Virus record (IMG/VR): IMGVR_UViG_3300027760_000553
Span: 35,583 to 99,582 of that record
Direction: 5' to 3' (one strand)
DNA: 64,000 nt
DNA from: a virus
Under the pieces are notes generated by a model, which was not told the DNA's origin, ran no database searches, and saw nothing but the letters and a program-made list of their open reading frames with translations. Position numbers and translations under genes: made by a program. Below are positions 485 to 23,363 of the stretch, piece after piece. Each line of letters opens with the position of its first letter. Positions within the stretch are counted from its first letter, which is position 1.

Positions 485-1129
485 TTATTCTCCATTTTTA
501 TTTAGTGTAAAACAAATATTTAATAAAATTCTCAAATCATTTTCTTTTGGTGAAAACCCAGTATGCAACTTTTTTCCATCAAAAACAACGCCCTTGCCAG
601 CAGTTGGAGAAATTGAATTTAAAACCTTCAACTCACCAAAATTGCCAGCAGTTTTTAAAACATCAAGTATTTTTTTATCGTATACTTCTGTTACTCCATC
701 CGAATCATTAAAGTAATAAAGAAAAACCATATGGTCTTCTATTGAATCAACATGGGGATAATTTCTAGAATCTTTTTCTTTATAAGATCTTGTTGCTATG
801 TTAATTTTACTTCTTATAATTTTGTCATATTTTATGTTGTGCTTAAAGCAAAACTTTTCAAAAACATCTTTTACAATATCAAAATCTAATCTGGAAACAA
901 TTTGAAAATATGGTTCAGATTTTTGATCTTGCATATATACTGTTGGTGCATTTTTCCATTGCCAAGATTTATCTTTGGTTTTTTGAAAATCAATTATCTC
1001 TGGAACATATTCAGGAATCCAATTAATTTTTCCATACAAAAAACTTTGATCAGAGAATATTCTTCTTAAAAACTCATCCTGCTCTTCTTTGGTTAAAAAA
1101 GAATCATCTTCAATAAAGAAATCACTCAC
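485..1129 (-). CDS. 2-oxoglutarate/Fe(II)-dependent oxygenase-like protein
   Basis: A 214-residue protein with the double-stranded beta-helix signature of 2OG/Fe(II) oxygenases. HVD (His126, Asp128) and His189 would bind iron, and Arg200 would bind 2-oxoglutarate. The family hydroxylates proteins, nucleic acids or small molecules; the substrate here cannot be read. The start is GTG at 1129, overlapping the end of the upstream zinc protein. This is one of at least eight such genes in the window and lies at the far end of the modification island. The N-terminal 110 residues are not recognisable and may provide substrate specificity. Confidence 0.75.
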   Translation of the reverse strand: MSDFFIEDDSFLTKEEQDEFLRRIFSDQSFLYGKINWIPEYVPEIIDFQKTKDKSWQWKNAPTVYMQDQKSEPYFQIVSRLDFDIVKDVFEKFCFKHNIKYDKIIRSKINIATRSYKEKDSRNYPHVDSIEDHMVFLYYFNDSDGVTEVYDKKILDVLKTAGNFGELKVLNSISPTAGKGVVFDGKKLHTGFSPKENDLRILLNICFTLNKNGE

Positions 1130-1352: not shown

Positions 1353-1538
1353 CTACCTCTTTCTATTATCGGTGGAATAAAAACCAGAACCGTTAAAAAC
1401 TGCTCCTACATTAGAGTATACACGAACTAAAGGAGAATTGCAAGTTTCACAATTGTACCCAGGATCACCATCCTTAATAGACCTTTCTTTAATATACCTT
1501 TGTGCACAAGGCATGCAATCATACTCATATACTGCCAC
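1353..1538 (-). CDS. FmdB-family zinc ribbon protein
   Basis: A 61-residue protein with the FmdB/CxxC zinc ribbon pattern. It starts MAVYEYDC, has cysteine pairs at Cys8/Cys11 and Cys30/Cys33, and ends with the family hallmark FNGSGFYSTD. Such proteins are linked to regulation and to many phage genomes, but no biochemical role is established. The start is GTG at 1538, chosen because GGAGG sits six bases upstream. The gene overlaps the end of the sulfotransferase-like gene. Confidence 0.85.
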   Translation of the reverse strand: MAVYEYDCMPCAQRYIKERSIKDGDPGYNCETCNSPLVRVYSNVGAVFNGSGFYSTDNRKR

Positions 1539-2256
1539 TAGAAACCTCCATGTAAAGTTCTTGTAATTTTGAAAAATCTTCTTCTTCTTCTATTTGCTTA
1601 GTTAAAGTTTCATACATTTTTGTTTTTTGAATATCATGGGGGCCATGATGCTTCATCTTTGCAACTTCTTGATTTGATAGACTACCAAAAGTTTTAGCAT
1701 CTCTATTTTTAATTACATCTTTCACCTCTTCTGATGAAATTTTGTTTTCATAGTGCATATTTATTTTTGATAAAACAAAAGTAATTATACTATCTGGATC
1801 ATTAACTAATTTATCAAACTCAATTACAAAAGCATTTTTATTTTCTATTTGAATAGTTAAATAATCTAAATAGTTTTCAGTTATACTCTTGATAATTCCT
1901 TTAAAATTATGGTGTGCTCCATTTAGCACATCCTCTATTGTTTTATCGTCTTGTGAGTTAGAGAGTGCAATAAAACAATAAGATTTGATAACCTCCATTG
2001 GACTTCTTACATTTGTAAACTGAATAAAACTATCAGACTGCTCCAACTTTAGCATAGATGGTATGTGAAAAAATGGGTGCAAAATAAATGTTTTATTTGT
2101 ATCTAAAACAAGTGTTTTATTTGTTAATTTTTTTAAATTATTTTCATTCTTAATATTTTTGGTCAGTGCACTATCGATACACTCTGCTAAAAAATTATTA
2201 CCAGATCTTGGTACAGAATTAAAAATAATATCAGTGGTGGTGAAATATTTTGACAA
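1525..2256 (-). CDS. Sulfotransferase-like protein
   Basis: A 243-residue protein resembling PAPS-dependent sulfotransferases. The N-terminal loop NSVPRSGNNFL (about residues 13-23) fits the 5'-phosphosulfate-binding loop, and NVRSPMEVIKSY (about 82-93, with Arg84 and Ser91) fits the 3'-phosphate-binding motif. The family moves sulfate from PAPS to hydroxyl or amino groups of sugars, proteins or metabolites. The start is TTG at 2256, immediately after the stop of a 34-codon gene. It belongs to the modification island with the carbamoyltransferase, glycosyltransferase and oxygenases, so it may cap a sugar or hydroxylated residue. The substrate is unknown. Confidence 0.65.
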   Translation of the reverse strand: MSKYFTTTDIIFNSVPRSGNNFLAECIDSALTKNIKNENNLKKLTNKTLVLDTNKTFILHPFFHIPSMLKLEQSDSFIQFTNVRSPMEVIKSYCFIALSNSQDDKTIEDVLNGAHHNFKGIIKSITENYLDYLTIQIENKNAFVIEFDKLVNDPDSIITFVLSKINMHYENKISSEEVKDVIKNRDAKTFGSLSNQEVAKMKHHGPHDIQKTKMYETLTKQIEEEEDFSKLQELYMEVSSGSI

Positions 2257-2361: not shown

Positions 2362-2561
2362 TATTTAATCCCCTTTCCAAATTTAGCCCAGACTCTTTCA
2401 TGTAAGAAGTATCCAAGGGCTTCCCATCCAATATAAATAAGGGCACCAAGACTTGCGTACTCCCATTCGCCAGTAAATAAATAAATGACTCCAGCGACAC
2501 CAACTAGGTGAAAGGTTTCCCAACTTGCTGTTTTAAGTAAAGTTCTTTTTGTTGATTCCAT
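2361..2561 (-). CDS. DUF2061-like small membrane protein
   Basis: A 66-residue protein with an N-terminal STKRTLLKTASWETFH, a hydrophobic segment (about 17-32), a second one (about 38-52) and the C-terminal motif YFLHERVWAKFGKG. The layout matches DUF2061, a family of two-helix membrane proteins. Because it directly follows the endolysin gene and overlaps its stop, a holin-like or lysis-accessory role is possible. That is inferred from position, since DUF2061 itself has no known function. Confidence 0.75.
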   Translation of the reverse strand: MESTKRTLLKTASWETFHLVGVAGVIYLFTGEWEYASLGALIYIGWEALGYFLHERVWAKFGKGIK

Positions 2562-3103
2562 TACTTAACCTTGCTTAACAATGGAGCATCTTCTTCTCCA
2601 ACATATACTGGACGACCCCAACCAACTACAGCATTAACTAACTTCTTCTTGTTATTCTTTACATAACCACGAGTCTTCTCTACGCACATTCCTCCGTTGC
2701 GCTGATCTCCCTTTGCAGTCCCTGAAGTGTTTCCTTCAATAACTTGGATTGTTCCATCGCCATTGTTCTTAATGCAAAGACCAACATGCGAAATACGATT
2801 TACGCCATCTTCTGGGAAATCAAAATAGATCCAGTCTCCTGGTGTTGGATCGTCATTACGAGCATCTGCCCATCGACCCTCTTTCTTAAACTGATCTGAT
2901 GCTGCTACGGTTGATGCAGACTTAGGAAATGATTTTACTCCCGCTGTAAATGCACACCATGAAACGAATGATTGGCACCATGGTTGGAAGTTAACCTTCA
3001 TCCATGCACCGTACTTTGTTTCATTATCTTTAGGGCCTTCAATTGTGCCCACTTCTTTCTTTGCAACCTCAACGATTGCTTCTAGACTACCTTTTACTGA
3101 CAT
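2561..3103 (-). CDS. CHAP-domain endolysin
   Basis: A 180-residue peptidoglycan hydrolase of the CHAP (NlpC/P60-like) fold, acting as amidase or endopeptidase. The motif PWCQSFVSWC gives nucleophile Cys43, RISHVGL gives His106, and IEGNTSG gives the polar Glu123/Asn125. CHAP spans about residues 8-135. The C-terminal 40 residues are basic and could bind the cell wall. No signal peptide is visible, so export would need a holin. A strong Shine-Dalgarno (AAAGGGGAG) precedes the ATG, and a promoter lies just upstream. It sits next to a small two-helix membrane protein rather than the three small membrane proteins at 11.8-12.5 kb. Confidence 0.88.
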   Translation of the reverse strand: MSVKGSLEAIVEVAKKEVGTIEGPKDNETKYGAWMKVNFQPWCQSFVSWCAFTAGVKSFPKSASTVAASDQFKKEGRWADARNDDPTPGDWIYFDFPEDGVNRISHVGLCIKNNGDGTIQVIEGNTSGTAKGDQRNGGMCVEKTRGYVKNNKKKLVNAVVGWGRPVYVGEEDAPLLSKVK

Positions 3104-3126: not shown

Positions 3127-3155
3127 ATTATATCAAACTTTGTTTAAATCTTCAA
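3127..3155 (-). promoter_or_regulatory. Sigma70-type promoter for the endolysin genes
   Basis: On the minus strand TTGAAG (3155-3150) is followed after 17 bases by TATAAT (3132-3127), preceded by TGA as in an extended -10. The -35 lies in the 3' end of the SGNH-like gene. The start point would fall about 20 bases upstream of the endolysin ATG and leave the Shine-Dalgarno intact. This would allow lysis genes to be expressed separately from the island upstream. Confidence 0.65.
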
Positions 3156-3792
3156 GGTATCTTGTATTAAAGCGATTGGCCCAGAAAGACTGATAAACAG
3201 TACCTTGGTCTCCATTGTCCTTTTTAATGGTTAGATGTGGGTGCTTATTTATTAAATAATTTATTTGACCTAGTTTTGGCTCTTGAAATCTTGTATCGAC
3301 ATACTGATATAAAGTATTCGGATTTTCAGCAATGTAATTTTTTACTTCTTTATCTAGATTAATAGGCCCATCATACTGCTGATTATCTGAACAAGTCCAA
3401 TAAAACTTTATATCTTTAAACTTATTTTCAAGTTCTACTAAACTATTAATAAAGTCTTCAAAAATAAAATCAGAATTTTGTACTTCTGAAAACAAAATAA
3501 AAATAACATCTGGAGAATATTCAGCAAAATATTCTTTTGCATTTTTTATAACATTTTTATAGTATATATCTTTATCATCTAATGCAAAAAAATCAGAAAC
3601 TAAAGTATGCTTTCTTAGTAGTTTGTCTAGTCTAAATGGCCAAACATTTTTAAAAGTTTCATCGTCATGCATTAGATCTGAAGATCCAAAATATACTACA
3701 TGTAGTTTACTATCATGATCCTTTTTAAATTCTTCACACATATAGCCATGAGTATTTTTTGTTCCATCATATTTGCTTAATACTTCTGTCAT
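3133..3792 (-). CDS. SGNH/GDSL hydrolase-like protein (tentative)
   Basis: A 219-residue protein. An early strand followed by VVYFGSSDLMHDD (about residues 32-44) resembles block I of SGNH hydrolases. The middle, SPDVIFILFSEVQNS, looks like the alternating strand/helix core, and a C-terminal Asp/His pair could complete a site. SGNH enzymes remove or move acyl groups on sugars and lipids. It overlaps the carbamoyltransferase stop by four bases (ATGA-type coupling), suggesting a shared pathway. The match is weak, and a non-enzymatic partner of the carbamoyltransferase is an alternative. Confidence 0.4.
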   Translation of the reverse strand: MTEVLSKYDGTKNTHGYMCEEFKKDHDSKLHVVYFGSSDLMHDDETFKNVWPFRLDKLLRKHTLVSDFFALDDKDIYYKNVIKNAKEYFAEYSPDVIFILFSEVQNSDFIFEDFINSLVELENKFKDIKFYWTCSDNQQYDGPINLDKEVKNYIAENPNTLYQYVDTRFQEPKLGQINYLINKHPHLTIKKDNGDQGTVYQSFWANRFNTRYLEDLNKV

Positions 3793-5228
3793 TTATTATA
3801 ATCCATTCCTGTTAAAATTTTAAAGTCGTATTCTTTTTCCCAATTTAAAATATCGTTGTTATCGTTTAATAAAGGTTGACCCTTAATATTCAGACTTGTA
3901 TTCAATAATAATGGTACACCTGTTTTAAGATAAAACTTATTAATAGTCCTCCACAAACCTCTATGCTGATGCTTGTTTACGGTTTGCACCCTAGATGTAC
4001 CGTCAGCATGGACTACAGATGGAATCTTTTCTGGTTGTAAACATTTAACTGTGTACTGCATATAAGGGCTTGCAAAGTCCATATCAAACCACTCAGAAGC
4101 ACACTCCTCCATAACTACTGGAGCAAATGGTCTAAACAACTCTCTTTGTTTAATTAAATTAACTTTATCTTTAATGTTTGGATCTCTTGGATCTGCAAGA
4201 ATACTTCTATTTCCTAATGCTCTTGGACCGTATTCTGCTCTACCTGATGCTACTGCCACAATTCCATCTTTTAATATACCGTCCACAATTTGCTGAACAG
4301 GATACTCTCCACCAAGATCGTACCCCAAGTATGGATCTTTCCACTCAATATGTTTTCCATATAGTGCTGCTGCTGCTCCCAAAGAACTTCCAGCATCTCC
4401 AGGGTTAGGCATGATCCAAATCATATCAAATATCTTCCAAAGTAAAGTATTTGCAGAAGAGTTTAACGCACATCCACCCATAAAAACCAAATTCTTTTTA
4501 CCAGTCATTCTTTGTGCCATACGCATAAAATCGTTAAGCCTTTGCTCGTATACCATTTGTACTGACGCTGCTATGTCAAATTTATCTTCTTCTGAAACCC
4601 ATCCCCAGTCAGTAATTCCCTTATGAAGGTTATATTTTTGTTGATCGTAATGTGGAAAATATTCATCTACCTTTTTGTAATACTTTGTCCAGTCTCCGTA
4701 TGCTGCCATACCCATCATAATATATTCTTCTTGGTTTGGCATAAGTCCAATCAACTGCGTGAAGGCTGAATAAAATAATCCAAAACTGACTGGATAGTTT
4801 TGCTTGTATTTTAACTTAATTTTATTTCCTTCACCTGTCCAAATTGTAGAAGTATTGTATTCTCCAATAGCATCTAGGACCACAATCACGGCATCATTAA
4901 AGTCACTGGTGTAGTAACCTGCTGCTGCATGGGAATAGTGATGACTAAAAGATTTTCTTGGAATACCAGGAAGTTCAAACCTTGGCTTCCATTCCCCAGA
5001 TCCACCCCTTAAAGCCAGTCTGGAGGCCTTTAGGAGGGGCTTTTCGTAGTAAGCAATGTGATCTGGTCTGCCGTACTGTAAAGCATCTTTTATTAAACTA
5101 TCATTCACATACCAATCATTTTTTTGCTTACTATATCTTTCAGCATGCCCTGCAAATAATATTTTTTCATCTTTAATTAAGGATACAGAAGCATCATGCG
5201 ATGTTTCATTTATTCCAAGAACTATCAT
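3789..5228 (-). CDS. Carbamoyltransferase of the NodU/CmcH/TobZ family
   Basis: A 479-residue protein. The N-terminal ASKHA-like domain opens with MIVLGINETSHDAS and carries SHHYSHAAAGYY (about 94-105) and VLDAIGEYNTS, the metal/nucleotide-binding pattern of the family. The C-terminal YrdC-like domain has SGRAEYGPRALGNRSILADPR and LNTSLNIKGQP, which are family hallmarks. These enzymes use carbamoyl phosphate and ATP to O-carbamoylate sugars or antibiotics; NodU modifies Nod factor sugars. Its length is slightly shorter than many relatives. GGTGAAG precedes the ATG, which overlaps the upstream oxygenase stop. Related genes occur in marine T4-like phages. The likely acceptor is a hydroxyl made or added by its neighbours. 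Confidence 0.9.
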   Translation of the reverse strand: MIVLGINETSHDASVSLIKDEKILFAGHAERYSKQKNDWYVNDSLIKDALQYGRPDHIAYYEKPLLKASRLALRGGSGEWKPRFELPGIPRKSFSHHYSHAAAGYYTSDFNDAVIVVLDAIGEYNTSTIWTGEGNKIKLKYKQNYPVSFGLFYSAFTQLIGLMPNQEEYIMMGMAAYGDWTKYYKKVDEYFPHYDQQKYNLHKGITDWGWVSEEDKFDIAASVQMVYEQRLNDFMRMAQRMTGKKNLVFMGGCALNSSANTLLWKIFDMIWIMPNPGDAGSSLGAAAALYGKHIEWKDPYLGYDLGGEYPVQQIVDGILKDGIVAVASGRAEYGPRALGNRSILADPRDPNIKDKVNLIKQRELFRPFAPVVMEECASEWFDMDFASPYMQYTVKCLQPEKIPSVVHADGTSRVQTVNKHQHRGLWRTINKFYLKTGVPLLLNTSLNIKGQPLLNDNNDILNWEKEYDFKILTGMDYNK

Positions 5229-5893
5229 TCTTCACCATTGGATAATCTTTTAGTGTCAAAATCAATATTGTGATACCAGTTTGGCAGAGCATATCTTGGA
5301 CCTTTTGTAACTGGATACACCTCATGAACATATAAAAAATTTGAAGGGAAAAACAAAATACTACCAGCAGCAGGTTTAAACTTAATTCCTGAATGTTTAA
5401 ATTCTATTTCTCCACCTTCATAATCATCATTGAGGTAAAGCAGCACGGATAAAACACGACTGCTGACACCCTGATCTTGATGGGCTGGAAGATGTCCACT
5501 TTCATCATATTTTAATAGATGCATTGTGTGTTCTCTAGACTTAATGTTTTTTTCTGCAAATGGATAAATTGCAGTTGAGTAGTGCTTTAATGTTGAATCT
5601 AACGCCCCAAATAATTCAGAAGATATACTTAACTGTTCATTAAAGTATGGGTCACAACTAGAAATATCTTTTACCTGTGGAATAAGTTTTTGCCAACAAA
5701 ACATAAGTTCATTTGAGCCATTGTTATACGTCCACTTTGTCCAAGGACCCACACACGTATCTTCCAACTGACCATCTTCAACATACATTTTGTCTAGATT
5801 TTCTATTTTTTCTATAATTGATTTAGGATCTTTAATTACATCTTTATAATAAACTAATCCTAAATCTAATATCTCAAAATTAAAGTTTTGCAA
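5225..5893 (-). CDS. 2OG/Fe(II) oxygenase, prolyl-4-hydroxylase-like
   Basis: A 222-residue protein with a clear prolyl-4-hydroxylase-type core. HQD (His138, Asp140) and His190 bind iron, and Arg200 in GPRYALPNWY would bind 2-oxoglutarate. The run VLLYLNDDYEGGEIEF is typical of this family. The start chosen is TTG at 5893, because AAGGGAG lies seven bases upstream and the overlap with the preceding gene falls to 14 bases. A longer version from GTG 5932 has no good ribosome site and overlaps by 53 bases. It sits between a sister oxygenase and the carbamoyltransferase. Its closing motif resembles that of the oxygenase at 62.4-63.0 kb. Confidence 0.85.
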   Translation of the reverse strand: MQNFNFEILDLGLVYYKDVIKDPKSIIEKIENLDKMYVEDGQLEDTCVGPWTKWTYNNGSNELMFCWQKLIPQVKDISSCDPYFNEQLSISSELFGALDSTLKHYSTAIYPFAEKNIKSREHTMHLLKYDESGHLPAHQDQGVSSRVLSVLLYLNDDYEGGEIEFKHSGIKFKPAAGSILFFPSNFLYVHEVYPVTKGPRYALPNWYHNIDFDTKRLSNGEE

Positions 5894-6482
5894 GATGGTA
5901 CTCCCTTGCCATCCATTTAGGATTTTTTTCACCTATCATAAAGTCTGGATCTGCATGTTTTGGCAAACTTGTATGCATGTATAGGCCAGTAAATCTATGA
6001 CCGCTTGTTACTTCTGTAATGCCATGAATATATTCACTTCCAGAACTTGGAAAAAATACTGCAGAATATTGCTTTGGTTGATACTCAAATCCTTGATTTG
6101 GGAAATAAATTTTTCCTCCAGTGTATTCAGATTCATGGTTTAAATACATTATTGTGCTCCACTCAATAAAAGGTTCTGGGCCTTGAGCGTCTAAATGCAA
6201 CTCTCCCTTAGTGCCCTCTGTCCAATGTGAACCAAATGATTTGTATACATATATTGGGTTTAAAAAACCATTGTCTTGTCTGTGTACCTCATTTGAAATG
6301 TTTCCATACCTAACCATTATATCCATAACTATTTTATTATATGGTAATGATGTTCCTCCATATCTTTGTGCATAGTATGCGGGATAAGGATTTCTTTCTG
6401 CAAATGGATCTGTCTGCTGATCGATCAAAGTCTTTGCGTCTTCTGGACTAATAAAGTTTTCTATTATTTTTATTCTGTGCAT
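5880..6482 (-). CDS. 2OG/Fe(II) oxygenase, prolyl-4-hydroxylase-like
   Basis: A 200-residue protein. HLD (His96, Asp98), His153 and Arg163 (SGHRFTGLYM) form the iron and cosubstrate site; IMYLNHESEYTGGKIYFP is the conserved strand region. It starts KIIENFISPEDAKTLI, a typical N-terminal helix of this group. It overlaps both the upstream glycosyltransferase-like gene and the downstream oxygenase. Together they suggest hydroxylation followed by glycosylation of an unknown protein or glycan, by analogy with hydroxyproline glycosylation. The pathway is inference; the fold assignment is solid. Confidence 0.85.
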   Translation of the reverse strand: MHRIKIIENFISPEDAKTLIDQQTDPFAERNPYPAYYAQRYGGTSLPYNKIVMDIMVRYGNISNEVHRQDNGFLNPIYVYKSFGSHWTEGTKGELHLDAQGPEPFIEWSTIMYLNHESEYTGGKIYFPNQGFEYQPKQYSAVFFPSSGSEYIHGITEVTSGHRFTGLYMHTSLPKHADPDFMIGEKNPKWMAREYHLAKL

Positions 6483-7342
6483 TTTTCCTCCTCAACCATT
6501 ATATCATTTATGTGATATATAGAATTATAGCCGTTATGAAATCTTCCAGTTCCCTTTCGATCTAGATTAAAGTCCTGGGTCCTAAACTTATACTCAACAT
6601 CATTGGTTTCAAATTTCATTATTTTTAAATTTTCAATAATAATATTATGAATACTGTTAAACCTTTTTGCAACATCTGTATTAAAATATTTATATATTTT
6701 TTTATAATTATGGTTTTCAGAATATGGCAAATAATCTATTTTTAATTTTGCCTTATTAATATAAACCTTATCTCCAAGAGAAAATATTTTAGTATTATCT
6801 TTTATTAAAGTTAGGCTTAACAATAGATCCTGTCCATATTTTTTTAAAGATTGGTTGTTAAATTCAAACATACTTGAAATATTTTTTTTATCTATTGCAA
6901 TAAAATCCATATCTATCCAGTTAGTCTCAAAAACAAAATTGCTACAATCTCCTAAATTTTTTACATAAAAGCCATCAGTGATTAACTTTGCTTCTTTGTT
7001 TCCAGAAAAAACAACATTTGGAATATTTGTAAAATTATCAACCAGATAAAGGTCCCAGTCTTTTTTTAATTCTACTGAATCCGAAACCTCAACATAGTAG
7101 TCGTAATCCTTTTTTATTATATCTTTTCTATATTCTGTAATTGGAAAATAAGAGTCCCAATATATATGACTATATTTTACTGAGGGTATATTTTTAAAAT
7201 ATGCCGTCCTGTCTATATTATTTTGGTCATATACATAAAGTCTTATTCTATTTTTATTGCTATATGAGTCTACCATATTTGCAACAATATCAATTAAGTT
7301 ATTATTTTTATAAGAATATAAAAATATTACTATTTCTTTCAT
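6470..7342 (-). CDS. Glycosyltransferase-like protein (tentative)
   Basis: A 290-residue protein, very AT-rich. It opens with KEIVIFLYSYKNNNLIDIVANMVDSY, resembling the first beta-alpha unit of GT-A glycosyltransferases. DYYVEVSDSVELKKDWD (about 80-96) could replace the DxD metal motif, and NWIDMDFIAIDK lies in the middle. The general look is of the GlcNAc-transferase type that acts on hydroxyproline, but I cannot confirm it. It sits directly upstream of two prolyl-hydroxylase-like genes. The ATG immediately follows the upstream stop region, suggesting coupled translation. Confidence in a transferase is moderate, in the donor sugar none. Confidence 0.45.
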   Translation of the reverse strand: MKEIVIFLYSYKNNNLIDIVANMVDSYSNKNRIRLYVYDQNNIDRTAYFKNIPSVKYSHIYWDSYFPITEYRKDIIKKDYDYYVEVSDSVELKKDWDLYLVDNFTNIPNVVFSGNKEAKLITDGFYVKNLGDCSNFVFETNWIDMDFIAIDKKNISSMFEFNNQSLKKYGQDLLLSLTLIKDNTKIFSLGDKVYINKAKLKIDYLPYSENHNYKKIYKYFNTDVAKRFNSIHNIIIENLKIMKFETNDVEYKFRTQDFNLDRKGTGRFHNGYNSIYHINDIMVEEEKCTE

Positions 7343-8001
7343 TATGCCAATGGAATGTAGTGTTGTTCTTCTGCTTTTTCAATAAATCTTAAAGGAATTA
7401 TATCGTAAGCAACGGTAATTCTTGGACCATCCCAGTCCCAATTTCCTTGTGCATGTGGGTGCCCCATCTCAGAAATAATTAATCTGTTGTCAATATTCTT
7501 ATTTTCAAAAATAAGTTCTTCTTTATTTTCTATTTTATAGAATGTTGATGATGGCTCTGCCTTAACACAGTAGTATCCATGAAAGTTTGGTGCCCAAGGT
7601 CCACCGTGATCGTGCCAGTCAAGTTTACCAACCTTTGAGTGATTTATATTAAACCAACCCTGAATCATATATTTTTCTTTTGCGAAGTCTATTCCGTAAT
7701 ATTCACAGGCTTCTTTTACTAAATCCCTAACTCCAACATAAAGGTTGTATATTTCTTCGCTGTGAAACTGAAAAACATTATACTCTCTCCACTTTACTGT
7801 AGAAATACTTCCAGACTCAAGCCAGTATTCTTGTTTCTCTGAATGCAATTTTGATACGCCAAAAACCTCACCCTGCTCAATTTGATCATATTTCTTATGC
7901 AAGAATTTAGACATCTTGTCTAGATCATTATTTAAAAACTTTTCAAAAAACTTATGAGGCTTATTGTATAGTTTTGGTATGTTGTAAAAGTCGTGATTCA
8001 T
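7342..8001 (-). CDS. 2OG/Fe(II) oxygenase-like or cupin-like protein
   Basis: A 219-residue protein. DWHDHGG (His130, His132), a second metal-binding region GHPHAQG (His181, His183) and Arg194 in PRITVAYDI fit a beta-barrel Fe(II) enzyme. GYYCVKAEPSSTFYKI is reminiscent of phage proteins of the PF13759 type (2OG-FeII_Oxy_5). HxH rather than HxD makes a cupin an alternative. AAAGGGAG provides a good ribosome site. It lies between the DUF6065-like pair and the glycosyltransferase-like gene, as part of the modification island. Confidence 0.6.
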   Translation of the reverse strand: MNHDFYNIPKLYNKPHKFFEKFLNNDLDKMSKFLHKKYDQIEQGEVFGVSKLHSEKQEYWLESGSISTVKWREYNVFQFHSEEIYNLYVGVRDLVKEACEYYGIDFAKEKYMIQGWFNINHSKVGKLDWHDHGGPWAPNFHGYYCVKAEPSSTFYKIENKEELIFENKNIDNRLIISEMGHPHAQGNWDWDGPRITVAYDIIPLRFIEKAEEQHYIPLA

Positions 8002-8021
8002 TTTTCTCCCTTTAGTTTTTC

Positions 8022-8753
8022 TTAATATCTCTTTTTATTCCATGCAAACTTTTTATAGTGTGCAGTAATATGTGATCTTCTTTGTTCTTCTAAAATCTTA
8101 TGTTTTTCATAAGACTCCTTTGACATATCTATGTCGATTTCCCAATCATCTCTCTTGATTGGTATCATTTGCATTATTGGTGTCCCCTGCTCTATTGTAC
8201 CAAAAAAGTCTCTTTTTAGAAAAAATGGTATAAATACTGGAAGACCCCAAACATCTGCATCTACAATTCCAGATGGTACATAGAATGGCAAGTCAAAACG
8301 GTTGAGTGGGTGAGTGATTAGTATTGAGTATCCTGGTGGTGTTTCATAGTACCAGTTCATTTTAAACCCAAAATGTATGGGGTGGCAATCTTTTGGTATT
8401 GCCATATCAACATTAAATCTTTTATCTATAATTGGAATATCTTTTTTCCATGACACAACTGGCATATTGTCATTATCAAAATCAACATGTACGTCATCCT
8501 CTAATCTGTAAATGTACCCAGCAGTCATTGAGTCTAAGAATGGTACACAAAGTTTTGTTGAAACATCTGAGCCATCAGAGCCACGATCATTAATTGGAAA
8601 GAGGTTTTTCATATCATTGCTAGTTCCATATTTGTAACCAACAAGATCTTTATACCAATCTGGAATCATCCTACTTGCACTTACTGGCTCTACCAACATA
8701 TCTATAAATTTAGGATCATTTGATGCTGGAACAAACTTTACCTTATTAGTCAT
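8022..8753 (-). CDS. DUF6065-like protein
   Basis: A 243-residue protein rich in beta strands. Recognisable traits are IPDWYKD near the N-terminus, CHPIHFGFKMNWYYETPPGYSILITHP in the middle (cited here only as a region, about 123-150) and GTPIMQMIPI near the C-terminus. This resembles DUF6065 proteins, found in phages and bacteria, whose function is unknown. Its start overlaps the stop of the upstream gene by eight bases. The upstream gene shares the GTPI ending, so the two look like divergent paralogues. No catalytic residues can be named. Confidence 0.5.
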   Translation of the reverse strand: MTNKVKFVPASNDPKFIDMLVEPVSASRMIPDWYKDLVGYKYGTSNDMKNLFPINDRGSDGSDVSTKLCVPFLDSMTAGYIYRLEDDVHVDFDNDNMPVVSWKKDIPIIDKRFNVDMAIPKDCHPIHFGFKMNWYYETPPGYSILITHPLNRFDLPFYVPSGIVDADVWGLPVFIPFFLKRDFFGTIEQGTPIMQMIPIKRDDWEIDIDMSKESYEKHKILEEQRRSHITAHYKKFAWNKKRY

Positions 8754-9408
8754 TATATTCTTTCTTTATTTGCTCAATTGTTTCTGAATCTTTTATAATT
8801 ATATCACATATAGGAGTTCCTGTGTCTATAATGCCGTATCTTTCATCTTTCATGTGCTTACCACTTTTATTGATAAAAAAATGTATCCATTTTGTATCTA
8901 GTATGTGTTTTGAAAAATCAACCTTATTGAAATAAACAGTATCTGTTATTAAATTAAATACAGTTTCATCACCAAAATTATTTGATATTTTGCATTCAAT
9001 ATCTTTATTTATTAACCATGGAAGATAAAACTTATACAAGGCATTAAAACTAATATCTTGCTTATCGTAGGCGAGTTCCGATGGGTAGAACTGTCTTTGC
9101 CAACATTTGTCAAGTGCATAGAGTCCATTGTACTTTGGTTCAACCCAAATTTCGGCGTGAGTTTTTTGACGCAAAACAACATGATCATCATTAACAATTA
9201 ACTCTGGTTTATTATGAAATATTTCTGCATACCTATTTACTGGAACTAAAAATTTATTAATGTAACTTTGATCAAACACATGACCAGAGACTCCCCACTC
9301 TGGATAAAGTCTACTACCTATAACCAAATCAGAAAAACTTTTGTTAGCAGAATTAATCCAATACTCAGAACCAACTATGCCATTTTTGGATAAATCATCA
9401 TTTGGCAT
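8746..9408 (-). CDS. DUF6065-like protein, divergent paralogue
   Basis: A 220-residue protein. It has SRLYPEWGVSG (aligning with the IPDWYKD region of its neighbour), LYKFYLPWLINKD, and the closing segment YGIIDTGTPICDIIIKD, which parallels GTIEQGTPIMQMIPIK next door. AAGGAT lies upstream of the ATG. Function is unknown. Placement between the RsmI-like gene and an oxygenase suggests it belongs to the same modification island, possibly as a binding or chaperone-like partner. That is inference. Confidence 0.4.
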   Translation of the reverse strand: MPNDDLSKNGIVGSEYWINSANKSFSDLVIGSRLYPEWGVSGHVFDQSYINKFLVPVNRYAEIFHNKPELIVNDDHVVLRQKTHAEIWVEPKYNGLYALDKCWQRQFYPSELAYDKQDISFNALYKFYLPWLINKDIECKISNNFGDETVFNLITDTVYFNKVDFSKHILDTKWIHFFINKSGKHMKDERYGIIDTGTPICDIIIKDSETIEQIKKEYND

Positions 9409-10134
9409 TTAATTATCCTTAATAATAAAGTTACTAACAACAAGAACTATCCTTGTGTTATCATTTATTTGTTTTATTTTATCATGGTTTGCTACAAAAT
9501 CTATATCACCAATCACAGAAAACTCTGTAGGCAGTGTCATGTTGCAGCAAATTGCAATCTGCTTTTTTACTTTTTCAAAATTATAATTTTTAATTAAATA
9601 ATCAAGTACTTCCATAAGATTATCCGCATATAGTGGTGTTACAAATGACCCTGCAGTATCCTTATGTTTCTTTAAGTTTTCTATAACTGTATGGATACCA
9701 TGCGATATAGTGATATCTCCACCAACAAAGCCACTAATTACATAGGCATTAAGGAATGCGTTTGGTCCAGGTACAACCACATACTCAAAGTTATTTTTAA
9801 TGCATTCCTGAATAAACTGACTTCCTGGATCTGCAACCCCAATTAGACCTTCTGATGCTACAAGCAATACTGTTTTTCCAGATTCAATATATTCTTTGAA
9901 AAGTTTGATTTGATCTGGATCAGCATATGTTGAATCTTTGCTTTTTAAAACAACTATGTCTTTTTTAATTTTAAGTTGTTTTATTATGTTTATAGCATTA
10001 ATCTCTGAATCATCACTAAAAATAACATCTGAACTAACAAAATAGTCTAGCATTCTTTGAGACATATCGGAAATATTACCAATATGCATTGATCCAACAA
10101 TTAATTTACCACTCTTTGCTGAGGTGGCAGGCAT
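9409..10134 (-). CDS. RsmI-like tetrapyrrole methylase family protein
   Basis: About 230-240 residues with the SAM-dependent tetrapyrrole methylase fold. GKLIVGSMHIGNISDMSQRML aligns in kind with the first strand and P-I-G-N loop of RsmI. SEGLIGVADPGSQF and VVPGPNAFLNA match its later SAM-binding motifs. RsmI 2'-O-methylates C1402 of 16S rRNA. The start is unsettled. ATG 10134 lies inside the preceding tRNA; an ATT at 10101, with AAAGAG ten bases upstream, would keep most of the first strand; ATG 10089 would remove it. Transcription through the tRNA and processing at its 3' end would favour the later starts. It may tune ribosome decoding or have been repurposed. Confidence 0.72.
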   Translation of the reverse strand: MPATSAKSGKLIVGSMHIGNISDMSQRMLDYFVSSDVIFSDDSEINAINIIKQLKIKKDIVVLKSKDSTYADPDQIKLFKEYIESGKTVLLVASEGLIGVADPGSQFIQECIKNNFEYVVVPGPNAFLNAYVISGFVGGDITISHGIHTVIENLKKHKDTAGSFVTPLYADNLMEVLDYLIKNYNFEKVKKQIAICCNMTLPTEFSVIGDIDFVANHDKIKQINDNTRIVLVVSNFIIKDN

Positions 10135-10191
10135 CGATCCTGCGACATCCGAATTAACAGTTCGGCACTCTACCATCTGAGTTACACCCCA
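10119..10191 (-). tRNA. tRNA-Asn (anticodon GUU)
   Basis: A 73-base cloverleaf folds cleanly: a 7-bp acceptor stem (TGGGGTG with CACCTCA, one G-T pair), a D arm (ACTC/GAGT), an anticodon stem CCGAA/TTCGG around CTGTTAA, a five-base variable loop, and a T stem GCAGG/CCTGC. The discriminator base is G. The T loop reads ATCGATG rather than TTCGANN, a mild deviation. CCA is not encoded. It lies between the S8 peptidase and RsmI-like genes on the same strand. Asn codons AAT and AAC are abundant in this AT-rich genome, so it probably supplements host supply. Confidence 0.93.
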
Positions 10192-10198
10192 AAACCTT

Positions 10199-10984
10199 TT
10201 ATGCTGTTACTTTTACTGGCTTGCCAATAATAGATCCCACAGAAACATATTGTGCTGCAACAGATGCTGTAGCAGAAGATGTTGTTAGTGGAATAGTCTT
10301 AAACAGTGTTGATGAAAAGTTGTCACCAATCAAAGGTAGTCTGACAAGATTTGCAGAGTATTTAACTGATGTTGAATCAGCAAAACCTGGTGTAGTTACA
10401 GCATTGACTGATGAAAGACACGCTGGATAGTCAATCTTTGTGCTTCCAAATGTATTTCCTGCTGAGGCAAATACTTGAATTCCCTTAGAGTTAAGAGAAC
10501 TAATTAAGGATTTAATCATTGCATCTGCAGCATCAACTGTGTATGGTGCAGAAGATGATGGCATGCATGGCTTTGATGGACTATTAAAGTATCTTGAAAA
10601 TGATACTGCACCAATATTTTGAGAATTACTATCTACCCATTTTAAAGCCTCAATAAACATTACTGGTGTTACATCTGCAACAGACTTTGAACTTGCTGGT
10701 GCTGATCTAAGAGCAATAATTTTAATACTTGGGTTTTGACGCTTTGCAACTTCAACCATTGCATTGCCATGATTAATGTTATTTCCAATACTTGAATTTG
10801 TAATAGTAACAACATCTGTGCATGAAGATTTTGTTTCTACAACAATGCATGAAACATTTAAACCCGAAACCTTAGAATCAAAATAACTATCAATAATGAC
10901 AAGTGACTTTGAGTCTGCTCCATTTGCTTGAACTGGTACTACAACTGAAAATAATACTACTGCTAGTGCTACGATCTTTTTCAT
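10199..10984 (-). CDS. Secreted subtilisin-like (S8) serine peptidase
   Basis: A 261-residue protein starting MKKIVALAVVLFSVVVPVQA, a signal peptide with probable cleavage near residue 20-23. The fold of S8 peptidases is visible: Asp32 in VIIDSYFD, His72 in INHGNAMVEVA, Asn177 in FASAGN (oxyanion hole) and Ser236 in TTSSATASVAA, matching GTSMATPHVAA. It is short for the family and lacks a propeptide. The start at 10984 was chosen for AAAAGG seven bases upstream; frames starting further upstream overlap the preceding gene. It would be exported and act on surface proteins. Phage-encoded secreted subtilases are uncommon. Confidence 0.8.
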   Translation of the reverse strand: MKKIVALAVVLFSVVVPVQANGADSKSLVIIDSYFDSKVSGLNVSCIVVETKSSCTDVVTITNSSIGNNINHGNAMVEVAKRQNPSIKIIALRSAPASSKSVADVTPVMFIEALKWVDSNSQNIGAVSFSRYFNSPSKPCMPSSSAPYTVDAADAMIKSLISSLNSKGIQVFASAGNTFGSTKIDYPACLSSVNAVTTPGFADSTSVKYSANLVRLPLIGDNFSSTLFKTIPLTTSSATASVAAQYVSVGSIIGKPVKVTA

Positions 10985-11001
10985 TTTATTCCTTTTCATT
11001 T

Positions 11002-11205
11002 TTACGATATCATCAATCTGACGACATGTTGGCATGGGTCGCCACCTGCTTCCCATTCTTCTGCTTCTTCTTCACCTATGTATTCATATCCACCATCATG
11101 GGTATTGCAATATGGTGGTGTTACCCAACCACGATCAATACCGTTTGACAACCAGATACCAAATTCTTGTTCTTCAGGTGACAAATCATCGTGTGTGTGA
11201 TTCAT
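11002..11205 (-). CDS. Small acidic hypothetical protein
   Basis: A 67-residue, strongly acidic protein (MNHTHDDLSPEEQEFG at the start; a run EEEAEEWEAGGD near the C-terminus). It contains YCNTHDGG and DPCQHVVRL, two Cys/His pairs that could bind a metal. Similar small proteins occur in actinobacteriophages; the function is unknown. AGGAG lies about a dozen bases before the ATG. It is between the Ntn hydrolase and the S8 peptidase genes on one transcript. An anti-restriction or DNA-mimic role is conceivable from charge alone, but nothing supports it directly. Confidence 0.65.
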   Translation of the reverse strand: MNHTHDDLSPEEQEFGIWLSNGIDRGWVTPPYCNTHDGGYEYIGEEEAEEWEAGGDPCQHVVRLMIS

Positions 11206-11220: not shown

Positions 11221-11745
11221 CTAGATACTAACTACATCAACTGGCCCCATACATGATGGGTTAAATTTAATTGCAGCATTTACTGCTTGTACTACTCTAT
11301 TTCTTGCATTTTTTTGTTTATCTGTTGCATATAAAACACCGTAAGCATATTCTGCTCCAGAACCCATAGCAAGATATGGAAGTGTGTATTTAGATAAAGA
11401 CATATCTGCAGAACTGTGTTCATATATGTTTCCACGAACTGCAATGATCAAACCAAGGTCTCCATCTTTAGATGTGTCAACCCAGAACTCATTGTAGAAT
11501 TCACGAAGTTCTTTGATAAATTTTGTTTGCATGTGCTTGTCAGTATCTTTTAAGATTGGAGCAGTTGGTTTAAAGTTGTAACGAATTCTTTCTCCGTCCA
11601 TTGCACCAGCATATCCAATTAAGTATGGACCTATCTTCCAAACCTTTGGTGCTTCAAGTGCTAGAATGGTACCATCATCTGATGCTCCACGATCTCCAGC
11701 CATATAAATTTTATCTTCATGTCGTACAACTGCAATACAAGTCAT
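11221..11745 (-). CDS. Proteasome/HslV-like N-terminal nucleophile hydrolase
   Basis: A 174-residue protein beginning MTCIAVV. After loss of Met, Thr1 would be the nucleophile; Asp17 (in MAGDRGAS) and Lys33 (in EAPKVWKIG) fall exactly where proteasome beta subunits and HslV have them. YLIGYAGAMDGERI matches the HslV strand-turn region, and LAMGSGAEYAYGVL matches the later GSG motif. HslV is about 175 residues, the same length. It has no propeptide and no visible ATPase partner here. It may form its own peptidase ring or borrow a host ATPase. It has its own near-consensus promoter and a structured leader. Subtype is inferred. Confidence 0.82.
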   Translation of the reverse strand: MTCIAVVRHEDKIYMAGDRGASDDGTILALEAPKVWKIGPYLIGYAGAMDGERIRYNFKPTAPILKDTDKHMQTKFIKELREFYNEFWVDTSKDGDLGLIIAVRGNIYEHSSADMSLSKYTLPYLAMGSGAEYAYGVLYATDKQKNARNRVVQAVNAAIKFNPSCMGPVDVVSI

Positions 11746-12319: not shown

Positions 12320-12549
12320 TATTTATCCTCTTTTCTTAGCGGGATTGTAATTAGCCAAATAATTGTTGTTGCCATTACAGCAATACCAACAATGTCTCTT
12401 GCTGATCCCGTCAAAGTTAACCATGCGATAAAGAAGCCAAGGAGGGTAAATGCCTGTGCAATTAATTCCATTCCTGCATCCTTAAACCATTTAACTAATC
12501 CTTTGAGCATTTTGCCTACTAGGTTGATGGCTTTATTGATTATTTTCAT
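12319..12549 (-). CDS. Small membrane protein
   Basis: A 76-residue protein with an amphipathic basic N-terminus (about residues 1-24), then two membrane helices (about 29-46 and 52-70) and a charged end RKEDK. AAGGAGG precedes the ATG at 12549, a very strong ribosome site. First of three small membrane genes that follow the PA14 protein and overlap end to end. A role in lysis or in the membrane anchoring of the PA14 protein is possible. Confidence 0.6.
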   Translation of the reverse strand: MKIINKAINLVGKMLKGLVKWFKDAGMELIAQAFTLLGFFIAWLTLTGSARDIVGIAVMATTIIWLITIPLRKEDK

Positions 12550-14678
12550 TTGTTCCTCCTTATCATTGCCCCTGCAATTTGTGATGCAATGACCACTGGG
12601 ACAATTACTTCTTGTGCTTTTTCTCTCTGATCATCTGTCATGTCCATACCCAACTCAGAAAAATTGGATAGGAGTTCTAATGGATCCACAGCAAATACTG
12701 CTCCAAGTGGATCTGATAAAAATGCATCTGTTTGTACTTCTGTTACTGCATCTGCAAGTGTAAATGGCATTGGAGTATCTCCTGCCTCTGCTGCTTTATC
12801 ATTAAAGGAAACAAATGCAGCAGCAAGTGCTGGGTTAGATTTCATTTGATCTGCAACTTTTGCAATTTCTGATGCGGAAATGCCAAGGCTTTCAGCAACT
12901 TGTGTTTTTGCTTCTTGTGTTAAAGCCTTTAGTGTTTGACTAACTGCTGCTGTTTGCTCTGCAGAAAGTTTAACTAACTTATTATCCTTGCTTGTAAGGT
13001 TTGCAATAACACCAGATAAATCTTCTTTGTTTCCTGTGCCATTTTGTGGGATAAGTGCTGCCAACTCTGCATCCTTGATTACTGGATCAATGTTTTCTGA
13101 TGGCTTAAAGTCTGGCCTTGGAAGTGGCTTAGGTTCTGGTTTTGGCTCTACAGAAGGCTCTGGAGCAGGTTCTGGCTTTGGTTCAGGGTTTGGGGCAGGT
13201 GTAGGCTTAGGCTCTTCTGGCTTTGGCTTGTCTGTTGGTTCTGGTTTAGGTCCAGGCTCTTCTGGCTTTGGGCCTGGCTGTGTTGGCTTAGGACCTGGTT
13301 CTTCTGTAACAGTATTATTAGTTGGCTTAGGCTCAGGTTTATCTGTTGGTGGTGGTGAAGGCTTTGGTTTTTCTGGTTCAACTGTTGGCTTTGGTTCTGG
13401 TGTAGGCTGATTTGCTGCAGCATTGGCTGCTGCTTGAGCAATTGCTCTTTGAATTTCTCTTTGCGACTGCTTATCATAGTAACGCCATGCGTCATCAATT
13501 GCACTATTAACATCAAGTATCGCATTATTAAAATTAGATATAGCATTATTCTTTTCAGATAAAGCATCTTCTGTTTCGTTAACAGCGTTGTTATACTCAG
13601 ATGTCTTATTAGTTAAATCTTGATTATATGAGTTTAATGTTGCAACCTCTTGATTATAAATATTTAATTTATTATTATATTCTTGCTGTGCTGCATTCTT
13701 TACACTTAATGCTGCTTGATAATCTGCAGTCTGTGTTGTACTTGCTCCAGATCCAGAAGAAAATGTATCAAGATTACAACTAAAGTTTTGTCCCCACACT
13801 CTTGGATTTCCAGCATAGTCGCAACCTGCACCAGTCCAACCTAAACTGCCAGATGAATCATAGGGTATTCCCCATCCAAGATGATAAGATCCTGGTCCTC
13901 CACCGTTGTACCACCAAATCTCTACATCAAATGTTTTATCTGTGGTTACATCATATATTGGAGAGTATTGACTCCATGTTGTTCCCTGTTCCTTCCAGTT
14001 ATTAATGACAAGGTTTCCATCAATATACATCCTAAAACCATCATCTGTATATCCTGCAAATTTTGTTGATGTAAACCATGACGGTACTGTTATTTTTCCA
14101 GTAAATTTAACTATAAAGTTTTCATATCTATTACCACAAACTGGACGAGTCATGTAGTTTCCATTTAGTGTTCCACTACATAAGAATTGATCTGTGGCTG
14201 CAAGGTCATCAACCCTGATTAAACTATAAACATTGTATGATAAACCAGCACCACCAGCATTATTTAATGCTTGTTGGGCTGTTTGTAGATTAATATTGGC
14301 TACGCCAAGGGCATCATAGGCATTATTCTTATTTGTTAGGGCAGTGGCTACTGTTGCTGTTTGTCCATCTACATTAGACTGGGCAAGATTTTTTGCTTCC
14401 AGTGCTAGGGTTTCTACATCTACTGCATCATCATAATTTTTAATTGCTAGGTCTCTGACATCCCGTAGATTTTTAGCATACATAAACTTATTCTCTGCTA
14501 TATCAATTAGGTTTATTAGACCATCTTTATAGTCTAATTTATCTACTGCGCTATTGAGGTTTTCAATTTGTTTTGCTGCTACTGTTAAGGGATCGTCAGA
14601 GTGAGCATCTTGTGGGGATATTAATAGCCATCCAAAAGCCAATATTGACGCTATTATTATGCGTATTAATCTTTTAAT
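12546..14678 (-). CDS. Secreted PA14 / proline-rich surface protein, probable ATT start
   Basis: About 710 residues. A signal peptide ends near SPQDAHSDD. Then follow a coiled-coil region, a PA14 carbohydrate-binding-type domain (about 148-295; FAGYTDDGFRMYIDGNLVI), a second coiled coil, a proline-rich spacer of EPKP/GPKP repeats (about 420-530), a helical domain and a short hydrophobic C-terminus with RRNK. The only start that gives a complete signal peptide (MKRLIRIIIASILAFGW) is ATT at 14678, with AAGGGGG eight bases upstream; a TTG at 14642 would remove the basic n-region. A promoter lies upstream. It looks like a cell-surface or wall-spanning adhesin; exclusion of other phages or a role in lysis are guesses. 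Confidence 0.7.
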   Translation of the reverse strand: MKRLIRIIIASILAFGWLLISPQDAHSDDPLTVAAKQIENLNSAVDKLDYKDGLINLIDIAENKFMYAKNLRDVRDLAIKNYDDAVDVETLALEAKNLAQSNVDGQTATVATALTNKNNAYDALGVANINLQTAQQALNNAGGAGLSYNVYSLIRVDDLAATDQFLCSGTLNGNYMTRPVCGNRYENFIVKFTGKITVPSWFTSTKFAGYTDDGFRMYIDGNLVINNWKEQGTTWSQYSPIYDVTTDKTFDVEIWWYNGGGPGSYHLGWGIPYDSSGSLGWTGAGCDYAGNPRVWGQNFSCNLDTFSSGSGASTTQTADYQAALSVKNAAQQEYNNKLNIYNQEVATLNSYNQDLTNKTSEYNNAVNETEDALSEKNNAISNFNNAILDVNSAIDDAWRYYDKQSQREIQRAIAQAAANAAANQPTPEPKPTVEPEKPKPSPPPTDKPEPKPTNNTVTEEPGPKPTQPGPKPEEPGPKPEPTDKPKPEEPKPTPAPNPEPKPEPAPEPSVEPKPEPKPLPRPDFKPSENIDPVIKDAELAALIPQNGTGNKEDLSGVIANLTSKDNKLVKLSAEQTAAVSQTLKALTQEAKTQVAESLGISASEIAKVADQMKSNPALAAAFVSFNDKAAEAGDTPMPFTLADAVTEVQTDAFLSDPLGAVFAVDPLELLSNFSELGMDMTDDQREKAQEVIVPVVIASQIAGAMIRRNK

Positions 14679-20509: not shown

Positions 20510-20812
20510 TCAGCGTGTGATGTATTTTAGTGCAGACACTAAATTGTTAATTGATTCAGCAGCAGTGTAGTAAAGATTTTTTTTGCCTCTATCAGATTTA
20601 TCTACATTTGCCATCCATGTTGCTTTAAATGCCATCTTTGCTGCGATTGCCTGAAGCCTTACAATCTCTACATGAGCCACATTGATTGGAATATCTGGCT
20701 TTATAATTAGTTTAGCAATCATTGTTAATGCAGTTGTCAGTTCTTCATCTTCCATATAGTCTGCAATTTCTACAAGACCATTTACCATATCAATAGTTGT
20801 TTTTTCTTCCAT
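20510..20812 (-). CDS. Hypothetical helical protein
   Basis: A 100-residue, mostly helical protein with no recognised domain. The N-terminal half is acidic (EEKTTIDMVNG, YMEDEELTTAL); the C-terminal half is basic and ends SALKYITR. It overlaps the stop of the upstream oxygenase gene by one base. It lies between the oxygenase triplet and the recombination nucleases. It could be a protein-protein interaction module; nothing more can be said. Confidence 0.6.
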   Translation of the reverse strand: MEEKTTIDMVNGLVEIADYMEDEELTTALTMIAKLIIKPDIPINVAHVEIVRLQAIAAKMAFKATWMANVDKSDRGKKNLYYTAAESINNLVSALKYITR

Positions 20813-22250: not shown

Positions 22251-22269
22251 AGTATCTCCTTTTATTATA

Positions 22270-23185: not shown

Positions 23186-23192
23186 AGTACTA

Positions 23193-23363
23193 TTATACCT
23201 CAAAATCTTTTTTAGTTTTTTTGCCTAAATATACAGTAGTTAGGTGCTTATCCTTACACATCCAAGTCAATGTTTTTGTTTCAGCATAACATCTTAATGT
23301 TGGCACTGTAGTTTTACATGTGTGACAAATCCATTGACCGTGATAAACAGTATAACTAGCCAT
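23193..23363 (-). CDS. Zinc-ribbon microprotein (56 aa)
   Basis: A 56-codon gene from ATG 23363 to TAA 23193. The product begins MASYTVYHGQWICHTCKTTV and has Cys13/Cys16 with later cysteines near 25 and 36, compatible with one zinc site, and a basic tail. It overlaps the RecA stop by eight bases and fills the only gap between RecA and the oxygenase triplet. Perhaps a DNA-binding accessory; no function is known. Confidence 0.7.
   Translation of the reverse strand: MASYTVYHGQWICHTCKTTVPTLRCYAETKTLTWMCKDKHLTTVYLGKKTKKDFEV

Follow-up and report, generated by a model that had tools for sequence, protein, structure and literature searches.

The window analysed here is a stretch of 64,000 nucleotides that spans positions 35,583 to 99,582 of the 99,582-base virus record IMGVR_UViG_3300027760_000553. 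The record originates from a freshwater phage, and its host is probably an actinobacterium, because the record contains a WhiB gene. An island of minus-strand genes is arranged in the order D65b-D65-ox3-GT-ox2-ox1-CT-SGNH (Table 1). The genes overlap at most junctions, by 8 nt between D65b and D65, 1 nt between ox3 and GT, 13 nt between GT and ox2, 53 nt between ox2 and ox1, and 4 nt each between ox1 and CT, and CT and SGNH. The genes named in the initial annotation are real open reading frames, located and oriented as proposed and mostly overlapping, but the island was incompletely described, since D65 and D65b lie within its coordinates, belong to the cassette, and were left unnamed. No near-identical DNA was found in annotated phages.

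Table 1 Predicted products of the island and of two outlying genes in the window.
Gene	Position	Strand	Predicted product and profile matches
Outlying 2OG oxygenase-like protein	485..1129	-	phrog_274 (1.1e-21), a profile also matching ox1 and ox2
Sulfotransferase-like P-loop protein	1525..2256	-	PRSGNNF motif
SGNH/GDSL-like	3133..3792	-	No match itself; family member matches Lipase_GDSL (1.9e-5)
CT	3789..5228	-	NodU/TobZ-type O-carbamoyltransferase; PF02543 and PF16861
ox1	5225..5932	-	2OG-Fe(II) oxygenase, prolyl-4-hydroxylase/PKHD-like; PF13640 (2OG-FeII_Oxy_3) 2.1e-17, above cut-off
ox2	5880..6482	-	2OG-Fe(II) oxygenase; PF13640 3.8e-7, above cut-off
GT	6470..7342	-	GT-A fold glycosyltransferase, remote PF11397 (GlcNAc)
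ox3	7342..8001	-	Oxygenase-like by motif only; phrog_2696 (unknown function) 4e-11
D65	8022..8753	-	DUF6065-like, predicted dUTPase/dCTP-deaminase-like fold; phrog_7084 8e-36
D65b	8746..9408	-	Fast-diverging, first gene of the cassette; no Pfam match

The ox1 and ox2 proteins are 2OG-Fe(II) oxygenases, as both retain the HxD...H iron ligands and a basic 2OG-binding residue. In the family alignment of ox1, ligands H151, D153, and H203 are invariant and R213 is present in 11 of 12 sequences, and residues H96, D98, H153, and R163 of ox2 are invariant in all 11 aligned sequences. The solved structures nearest to ox1 are a bacterial prolyl 4-hydroxylase (1e-4), the PKHD PiuC (4e-4), and LH3. Classical prolyl 4-hydroxylases bind the 2OG carboxylate through a lysine. 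The corresponding residue of ox1 and ox2 is an arginine, so a specificity for proline is putative. The ox3 protein, which lacks a Pfam match, is probably an Fe(II)/2OG oxygenase-like protein, judged by motif alone: W-H-D-H, H183, and R194 are invariant in its family alignment. A search of solved structures with the ox3 profile gave nothing useful, and in many relatives the ox3 slot is taken by a second D65. Of the three overlapping oxygenase-like genes of the initial annotation, ox1 and ox2 are supported by Pfam, and ox3 tentatively by its motif. The outlying oxygenase that was also proposed shares a profile with ox1 and ox2, but comparison of its profile with that of the ox1 family was negative.

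The glycosyltransferase assignment of GT derives from relatives and from modeling. The protein of the window has no profile match itself, and six of 13 homologs match PF11397 (best 1.2e-6); the homolog from locus L075 reaches 28.6 bits against a cut-off of 21, and the other homologs shown fall under the cut-off. The AF2 model of GT (pLDDT 75) has a GT-A fold. Its top Foldseek matches are polypeptide GalNAc-transferases (1e-9), and viral GlcNAc glycosyltransferases and mimivirus R699 structures are also among the matches. A profile search of solved structures with GT yielded nothing useful. PF11397 is the family of the Skp1 hydroxyproline GlcNAc-transferase (GT60-like), of which GT appears to be a remote member resembling protein-modifying glycosyltransferases. 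GT contains a single aspartate where a DxD/DxH motif is expected, and the second acidic or histidine residue is missing in nearly all family members, so the catalytic activity and donor of GT are putative. GT proteins from different loci are only 26–34% identical; nonetheless, the gene order is kept.

The D65 protein is predicted to have the fold of the dUTPase/dCTP deaminase superfamily. Six of 14 family members match DUF6065 (best 2.1e-5), and the AF2 model (pLDDT 81) resembles dUTPase 3ecy in Foldseek (1.6e-5), with a TM-score of 0.73 by target and 0.39 by query. Of the five catalytic motifs of the superfamily, likenesses of motif 3 (VDxD) and motif 4 (GTPxxQ) can be recognized.

CT is, as had been proposed, a true NodU/TobZ-type O-carbamoyltransferase, and would transfer carbamoyl groups to a hydroxyl in a carbamoyl phosphate- and ATP-dependent reaction. 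The Carbam_trans_C (2.3e-53) and Carbam_trans_N (1.7e-33) matches are both above cut-offs, phrog_1601 is matched at 2.7e-104, and the novobiocin, GdmN, and TobZ O-carbamoyltransferases are matched among solved structures at 1e-40 to 1e-51. The SGNH-like identity of the adjacent gene, also annotated initially, is borne out by the match of its relative. The SGNH protein keeps Ser38 and Asp192, but Asp195 replaces the histidine of the DxxH motif, which is present in 10 of 10 aligned relatives; therefore, with its catalytic triad incomplete, it is probably not an active hydrolase. The sulfotransferase-like assignment of the P-loop protein is weak. It has no sulfotransferase match in Pfam, but in addition to its motif it aligns with L083:4283-4816 (23% identity, 8e-5), which matches Sulfotransfer_3 (1.5e-6).

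The gene order of the island recurs in dozens of viral contigs, and many other lake phages have the cassette. Among the counted loci, which are top matches and phylogenetically non-independent, GT is located directly upstream of ox2 in 72 of 76, and ox1 directly downstream of ox2 in 67 of 69; among the 55 covered ox2 loci, 52 have D65b upstream. The conserved order is D65b-D65-(ox3 or second D65)-GT-ox2-ox1. In loci L133, L159, and L161, a homolog of the outlying oxygenase directly follows ox1 and the cassette, and in L161 the next gene encodes a P-loop protein that contains the motif PRRCSTN and is similar by eye to the sulfotransferase-like protein. The dN/dS ratios of cassette genes between the window and L004 are 0.02–0.17, indicating purifying selection on all of them. 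The island therefore exceeds a chance arrangement, given the low dN/dS and the order kept in dozens of contigs.

CT lies downstream within six genes at 53 of 57 ox2 loci. Nevertheless, the cassette is missing from 17 of 33 well-covered loci of CT, which usually has an SGNH-like neighbor. L133, L159, L161, and L166 carry the cassette but no CT, and CT is positioned on the opposite side in L021, L036, L043, and L074. The oxygenase-GT cassette on the one hand, and CT with the SGNH-like genes on the other, form two units of the locus that can occur apart. The initial annotation had proposed one linear pathway acting on one acceptor, which is not supported in this form, since CT and the cassette can occur separately and CT switches sides. 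It had named the separate occurrence of the neighboring genes as evidence against its proposal; such separation is found for CT, but not for the oxygenase-GT part. Its proposal is supported in other respects: the genes form a recurrent unit, their order is present in many other phages, which it had suggested as a check, GT resembles a protein-modifying type, and a homolog of the outlying oxygenase follows the cassette in three loci.

Bacterial DUF6065 loci lack the cassette genes, and 395 genomes of one actinobacterial class, searched without a positive control, yielded only three weak, partial ox2 matches; a cellular origin of the cassette was therefore rejected. No homologs of ox2, ox3, or GT were found in the annotated phage collection. 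Relatives of ox1 are located next to virion genes of cyanophages: beside baseplate wedge genes in P-SSM2, beside a tail fiber in S-SSM7, and beside a short tail fiber and tail chaperone in Sf-FP1. ACG-2014f contains, with small ORFs in between, a collagen repeat gene, a glycosyltransferase, the 2OG relative of ox1, and a short tail fiber, and S-SCSM2R has the order 2OG-GT-GT25. A carbamoyltransferase of S-CAM3 is encoded between tail-fiber genes, with sugar genes. The position of the ox1 relatives supports the decoration of a phage protein.

We tentatively favor, at somewhat less than an even chance, a protein-decoration locus of two linked units, in which a phage protein would be glycosylated in a hydroxylation-dependent manner and capped by carbamoyl groups. 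In the first unit, ox1, ox2, and probably ox3 would add hydroxyl groups to side chains of a phage-encoded protein, prolines being the most likely residues, GT would put a sugar on the new hydroxyl, and D65 and D65b would be accessory proteins. In the second unit, CT would carbamoylate a sugar hydroxyl, the carbamoyl group may be bound or remodeled by the SGNH protein, probably without catalysis here, and the sulfotransferase-like protein may supply a second type of cap. The likeness of D65 to nucleotide enzymes is unexplained by this model. As acceptor, a phage protein that is exported or part of the virion is most likely, and the benefit would probably be to avoid or vary recognition at the cell surface. 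The genome encodes a tail protein with a Pfam Collagen match; among its products, the collagen-like tail protein at L082:2828-3556 and the PA14 protein at positions 12546-14642, which is rich in proline, are the best candidate acceptors. Neither was retained as the sole acceptor, as GXY repeats occur alike with and without the cassette, and the PA14 protein is proline-rich in cassette-plus and cassette-minus phages, so neither tracks the cassette. It is possible, but rather doubtful, that all of the steps form a phage pathway in which a virion protein is hydroxylated by dedicated oxygenases, glycosylated at the new hydroxyls by a polypeptide glycosyltransferase that evolves fast, and capped with carbamoyl and sulfate, and whose genes have been disseminated among freshwater actinophages as a cassette. 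Phage isolates that infect Ca. Nanopelagicales are reported (PMC10202952).

Parts of such a pathway have precedents. Mycobacteriophages, like the island, encode glycosyltransferases, for which a role in decorating capsid or tail proteins was proposed, and we know of no hydroxylation or carbamoylation step there. In Dictyostelium, Skp1 is modified by the prolyl 4-hydroxylase PhyA and then by the GlcNAc-transferase Gnt1 (PMC3515798), similar to the pairing of a 2OG prolyl-hydroxylase-like enzyme with a PF11397-family glycosyltransferase in the island. The island differs in being formed by phage genes, with several oxygenases, CT and D65 proteins, and a GT without the full metal motif. Mimivirus encodes the hydroxylase-glucosyltransferase L230 and the proven collagen glucosyltransferase R699 (PMC9546862), and thus hydroxylates and then glycosylates collagen-like proteins, as proposed for the island. 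However, mimivirus is a eukaryotic virus that modifies lysine rather than proline, without a carbamoyl step and without clear sequence similarity to the island.

It is less probable that the genes act in the infected cell on a host surface glycan or exported host protein, for instance to prevent superinfection or release progeny from receptors, with the virion undecorated. The island is located between exported-protein-like genes (PA14, a signal-peptide protein, and a holin-like protein) and the endolysin, and an SGNH-like gene is situated beside CT in 44 of 60 CT loci. NodU-type carbamoyltransferases commonly act on sugars, and pairs of carbamoyltransferase and SGNH genes are familiar from envelope polysaccharide clusters. 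However, genes for nucleotide-sugar synthesis, a polymerase, or a flippase were not seen next to the island, and the polypeptide glycosyltransferase likeness of the GT model and the tail and baseplate clusters of cyanophage 2OG relatives also speak against this reading.

The two units may instead be independent pathways with different acceptors that merely share an insertion hot-spot, which we consider unlikely. The separability and side-switching of CT are consistent with it, as is the 84–100% identity of CT between phages with strongly divergent cassette proteins, but the proximity of CT to most ox2 loci and its overlap with ox1 in the window are not. Hypermodification of DNA bases, in which an oxygenase would generate a hydroxymethyl base capped by GT and CT, is very improbable. 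A phage carbamoyltransferase of the broad NodU/TobZ-type family caps the hydroxyl of 5-hydroxymethylcytosine (PMC8670742), D65 has a dUTPase-like fold, and ox1 matches Tet_JBP weakly (1e-4). However, in that system the carbamoyltransferase has a thymidylate-synthase-type partner, and their co-occurrence is confined to modified contigs (PMC8670742). None of 14 large records including this one, which may be incomplete, contained a thymidylate-synthase-type enzyme or C5-methyltransferase, although positive controls were detected. Together with the match of GT to protein glycosyltransferases, the gene content makes carbamoylation of DNA bases appear unlikely. It is hardly credible that the island tailors a small molecule or cofactor: hydroxylation, carbamoylation, and sulfation are also joined in natural-product pathways, and the solved structures closest to CT belong to enzymes that modify antibiotics, but these are simply the carbamoyltransferases for which structures exist, and no core biosynthesis genes lie near the island.

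The many 2OG oxygenases and carbamoyltransferases of phages are mostly classed as auxiliary metabolic genes or assigned to DNA repair. Searches of open-license papers did not find this enzyme combination described. The Nol-like carbamoyltransferases and 2OG oxygenases of cyanophages (PMC3037559), for which roles in nitrogen signaling or DNA repair were proposed, belong to the same enzyme families as those of the island and are often located next to tail genes; the carbamoyltransferases are 28–44% identical to CT among the matches listed. The recurrent coupling of oxygenases to a protein-type glycosyltransferase, together with the placement near tail genes, may indicate an alternative role for such enzymes in the decoration of virion proteins. 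If true, this would be a bacterial-virus counterpart of hydroxyproline glycoproteins, and would turn a large class of unexplained genes, in phages whose hosts are probably among the most abundant lake bacteria, into a testable question.

Most adjacent genes of the island (table below) overlap, which suggests an operon with coupled translation; promoter-like sites were not in excess. The gene at 9409-10176, encoding a tetrapyrrole-methylase/RsmI-like protein (PF00590, 4e-10), adjoins the D65b-D65-ox3-GT-ox2-ox1 cassette in some relatives. Many of these phages carry, adjoining lysis genes, an HslV/proteasome-like Ntn hydrolase (11221-11745; phrog_1040, 1.9e-22) whose conservation exceeds 90%. 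The apparently exported proteins at 14784-15911 and 10199-11056 have signal-peptide-like starts, and the latter resembles a subtilisin-type protease by eye, with no Pfam match.

Genes of the island and their positions in the window
Gene	Position	Strand	Remark
D65b	8746-9408	minus	
D65	8022-8753	minus	DUF6065-like
ox3	7342-8001	minus	oxygenase by motif only
GT	6470-7342	minus	homologues match PF11397
ox2	5880-6482	minus	2OG-Fe(II) oxygenase
ox1	5225-5932	minus	2OG-Fe(II) oxygenase
CT	3789-5228	minus	carbamoyltransferase
SGNH	3133-3792	minus	
CHAP endolysin	2561-3103	minus	next after SGNH
Sulfotransferase-like gene	1525-2256	minus	after CHAP endolysin
Outlying oxygenase	485-1129	minus	further oxygenase-like gene, last in order

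The window covers bases 35,583-99,582 of a virus record totalling 99,582 bases and includes TerL-, portal-, capsid-, and tape-measure-like genes, as judged from ORFs. No near-identical DNA was found among 50,697 annotated phage records. A WhiB gene in the record (L083:16084-16368; PF02467, 2e-11) points to an actinobacterial host, since WhiB has served as a criterion for freshwater actinophages (PMC6802176). About six more 2OG-oxygenase-like genes lie elsewhere in the record (window 20812-21588, 21591-22280, 22538-23203, and 62447-62968; L082:4768-5367; L083:13039-13740), three of them clustered beside RecA. A second decoration-like cluster of this record (L083:4283-11205) contains a sulfotransferase (PF13469, 1.5e-6), another sulfotransferase-like ORF, two SGNH-like proteins with the catalytic histidine intact, and a methyltransferase (PF13578).

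The gene set recognized in the initial annotation is real, coupled, conserved, and widespread. Most of its genes overlap, and the same order, sought in other phages, is kept across viral contigs. Among the best 80 of 242 viral-contig relatives found with ox2, top hits that include near-duplicates and are phylogenetically non-independent, GT lies directly upstream of ox2 in 72/76 covered loci, ox1 directly downstream in 67/69, D65 upstream in 52/55, and CT within six genes in 53/57. In the best 80 of 563 relatives found with CT, selected likewise, an SGNH-like gene adjoins CT in 44/60 loci and the cassette accompanies it in 16/33. CT is located on the opposite side of the cassette in four loci (L021, L036, L043, L074). 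Three loci (L133, L159, L161) carry the cassette without CT; a homologue of the outlying oxygenase comes next, followed in L161 by a P-loop protein that carries the motif PRRCSTN, identified by eye and without a sulfotransferase family match, and beyond these lie ribonucleotide reductase and structural genes. The island thus comprises two units, the cassette and CT with SGNH-like genes, which usually travel together. Record G013, to which L158 belongs, has ox2-ox1-CT without GT at one place and a strong GT match ~40 kb from it, which may reflect a split or a duplication of the cassette.

The sequence-based identities of CT as a carbamoyltransferase and of ox1 and ox2 as 2OG-Fe(II) oxygenases are secure; the iron ligands of both oxygenases are invariant across relatives. 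The nearest solved structures to ox1 are bacterial prolyl 4-hydroxylase, PiuC, and the collagen lysyl hydroxylase LH3. ox3 is a putative oxygenase by motif only. Because these 2OG oxygenases match PHROGs 274 and 2297, the titles of those profiles ('DNA endonuclease V' and 'DNA endonuclease') look wrong, as do phage annotations derived from them. The SGNH protein retains the catalytic serine and aspartate and has lost the histidine. D65 has a predicted dUTPase-like fold; its homologues occur near virion genes in haloarchaeal tailed viruses (Halorubrum phage HF2, L084) and in many Rhizobiales genomes (loci among L169-L246), there unaccompanied by cassette genes.

GT alone had no family match; one of its homologues exceeds the curated cut-off of PF11397, a family that includes the Skp1 GlcNAc-transferase, which acts on hydroxyproline. 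The AlphaFold model of GT (pLDDT 75) has its best matches among polypeptide GalNAc-transferases (E ~1e-9, TM-score ~0.6, 10% identity). Mimivirus R699 (PMC9546862), proven to be a collagen glucosyltransferase, ranks lower, and matches in the viral library include viral GlcNAc glycosyltransferases. The model firmly supports a glycosyltransferase but only moderately a protein acceptor, because such folds are common to many GT-A enzymes; the metal motif in the GT sequence is incomplete.

Two candidate acceptors are encoded in the same genome: a collagen-like tail protein (L082:2828-3556), which matches PF01391 (8e-8) as well as tail-fibre PHROGs, and a PA14 protein rich in proline (12546-14642; PF07691, 1.4e-6). 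Neither is restricted to cassette-bearing phages. The PA14 protein has well conserved ends and a long, variable PKPEP-type repeat. Tandem Gly-Ala-Phe coding repeats (GAFGAF...) occur in several related phage records (G001:C1:29897-30006, G003:C1:103632-103768, G004:C1:838-965). In named cyanophages, ox1 relatives adjoin tail or baseplate genes, which lends indirect support to a virion acceptor; in ACG-2014f, two ORFs separate a collagen repeat from a glycosyltransferase, after which come the 2OG oxygenase, one ORF, and a short tail fibre. No such neighbors accompany the ox1 relative of a Methylophilales phage. Cyanophage 2OG oxygenases were earlier proposed to function in nitrogen signalling or DNA repair (PMC3037559).

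We tentatively favor, at somewhat less than an even chance, a pathway in which a phage protein would be hydroxylated, then glycosylated dependent on the hydroxylation, with carbamoyl capping. That the enzymes instead modify the host surface is rather unlikely. The separation of the two units in some loci keeps alive an unlikely explanation, that the cassette and CT are independent pathways sharing a hot-spot. Carbamoylation of DNA bases has a published precedent (PMC8670742), the partner enzymes of which are absent from 14 large, possibly incomplete records including this one, and is very improbable.

Between the window and the related locus L004, dN/dS of 0.02-0.17 shows purifying selection on all the cassette genes. 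In wider comparisons, CT is 87-89% identical, GT falls to ~30%, and D65b to 25-51%; this contrast would be expected if the capping step is conserved and the specificity of the glycosyltransferase changes fast. A search of open-licence literature found no published description of the gene set, which would belong within phage-encoded surface decoration as a variant rather than a separate category.
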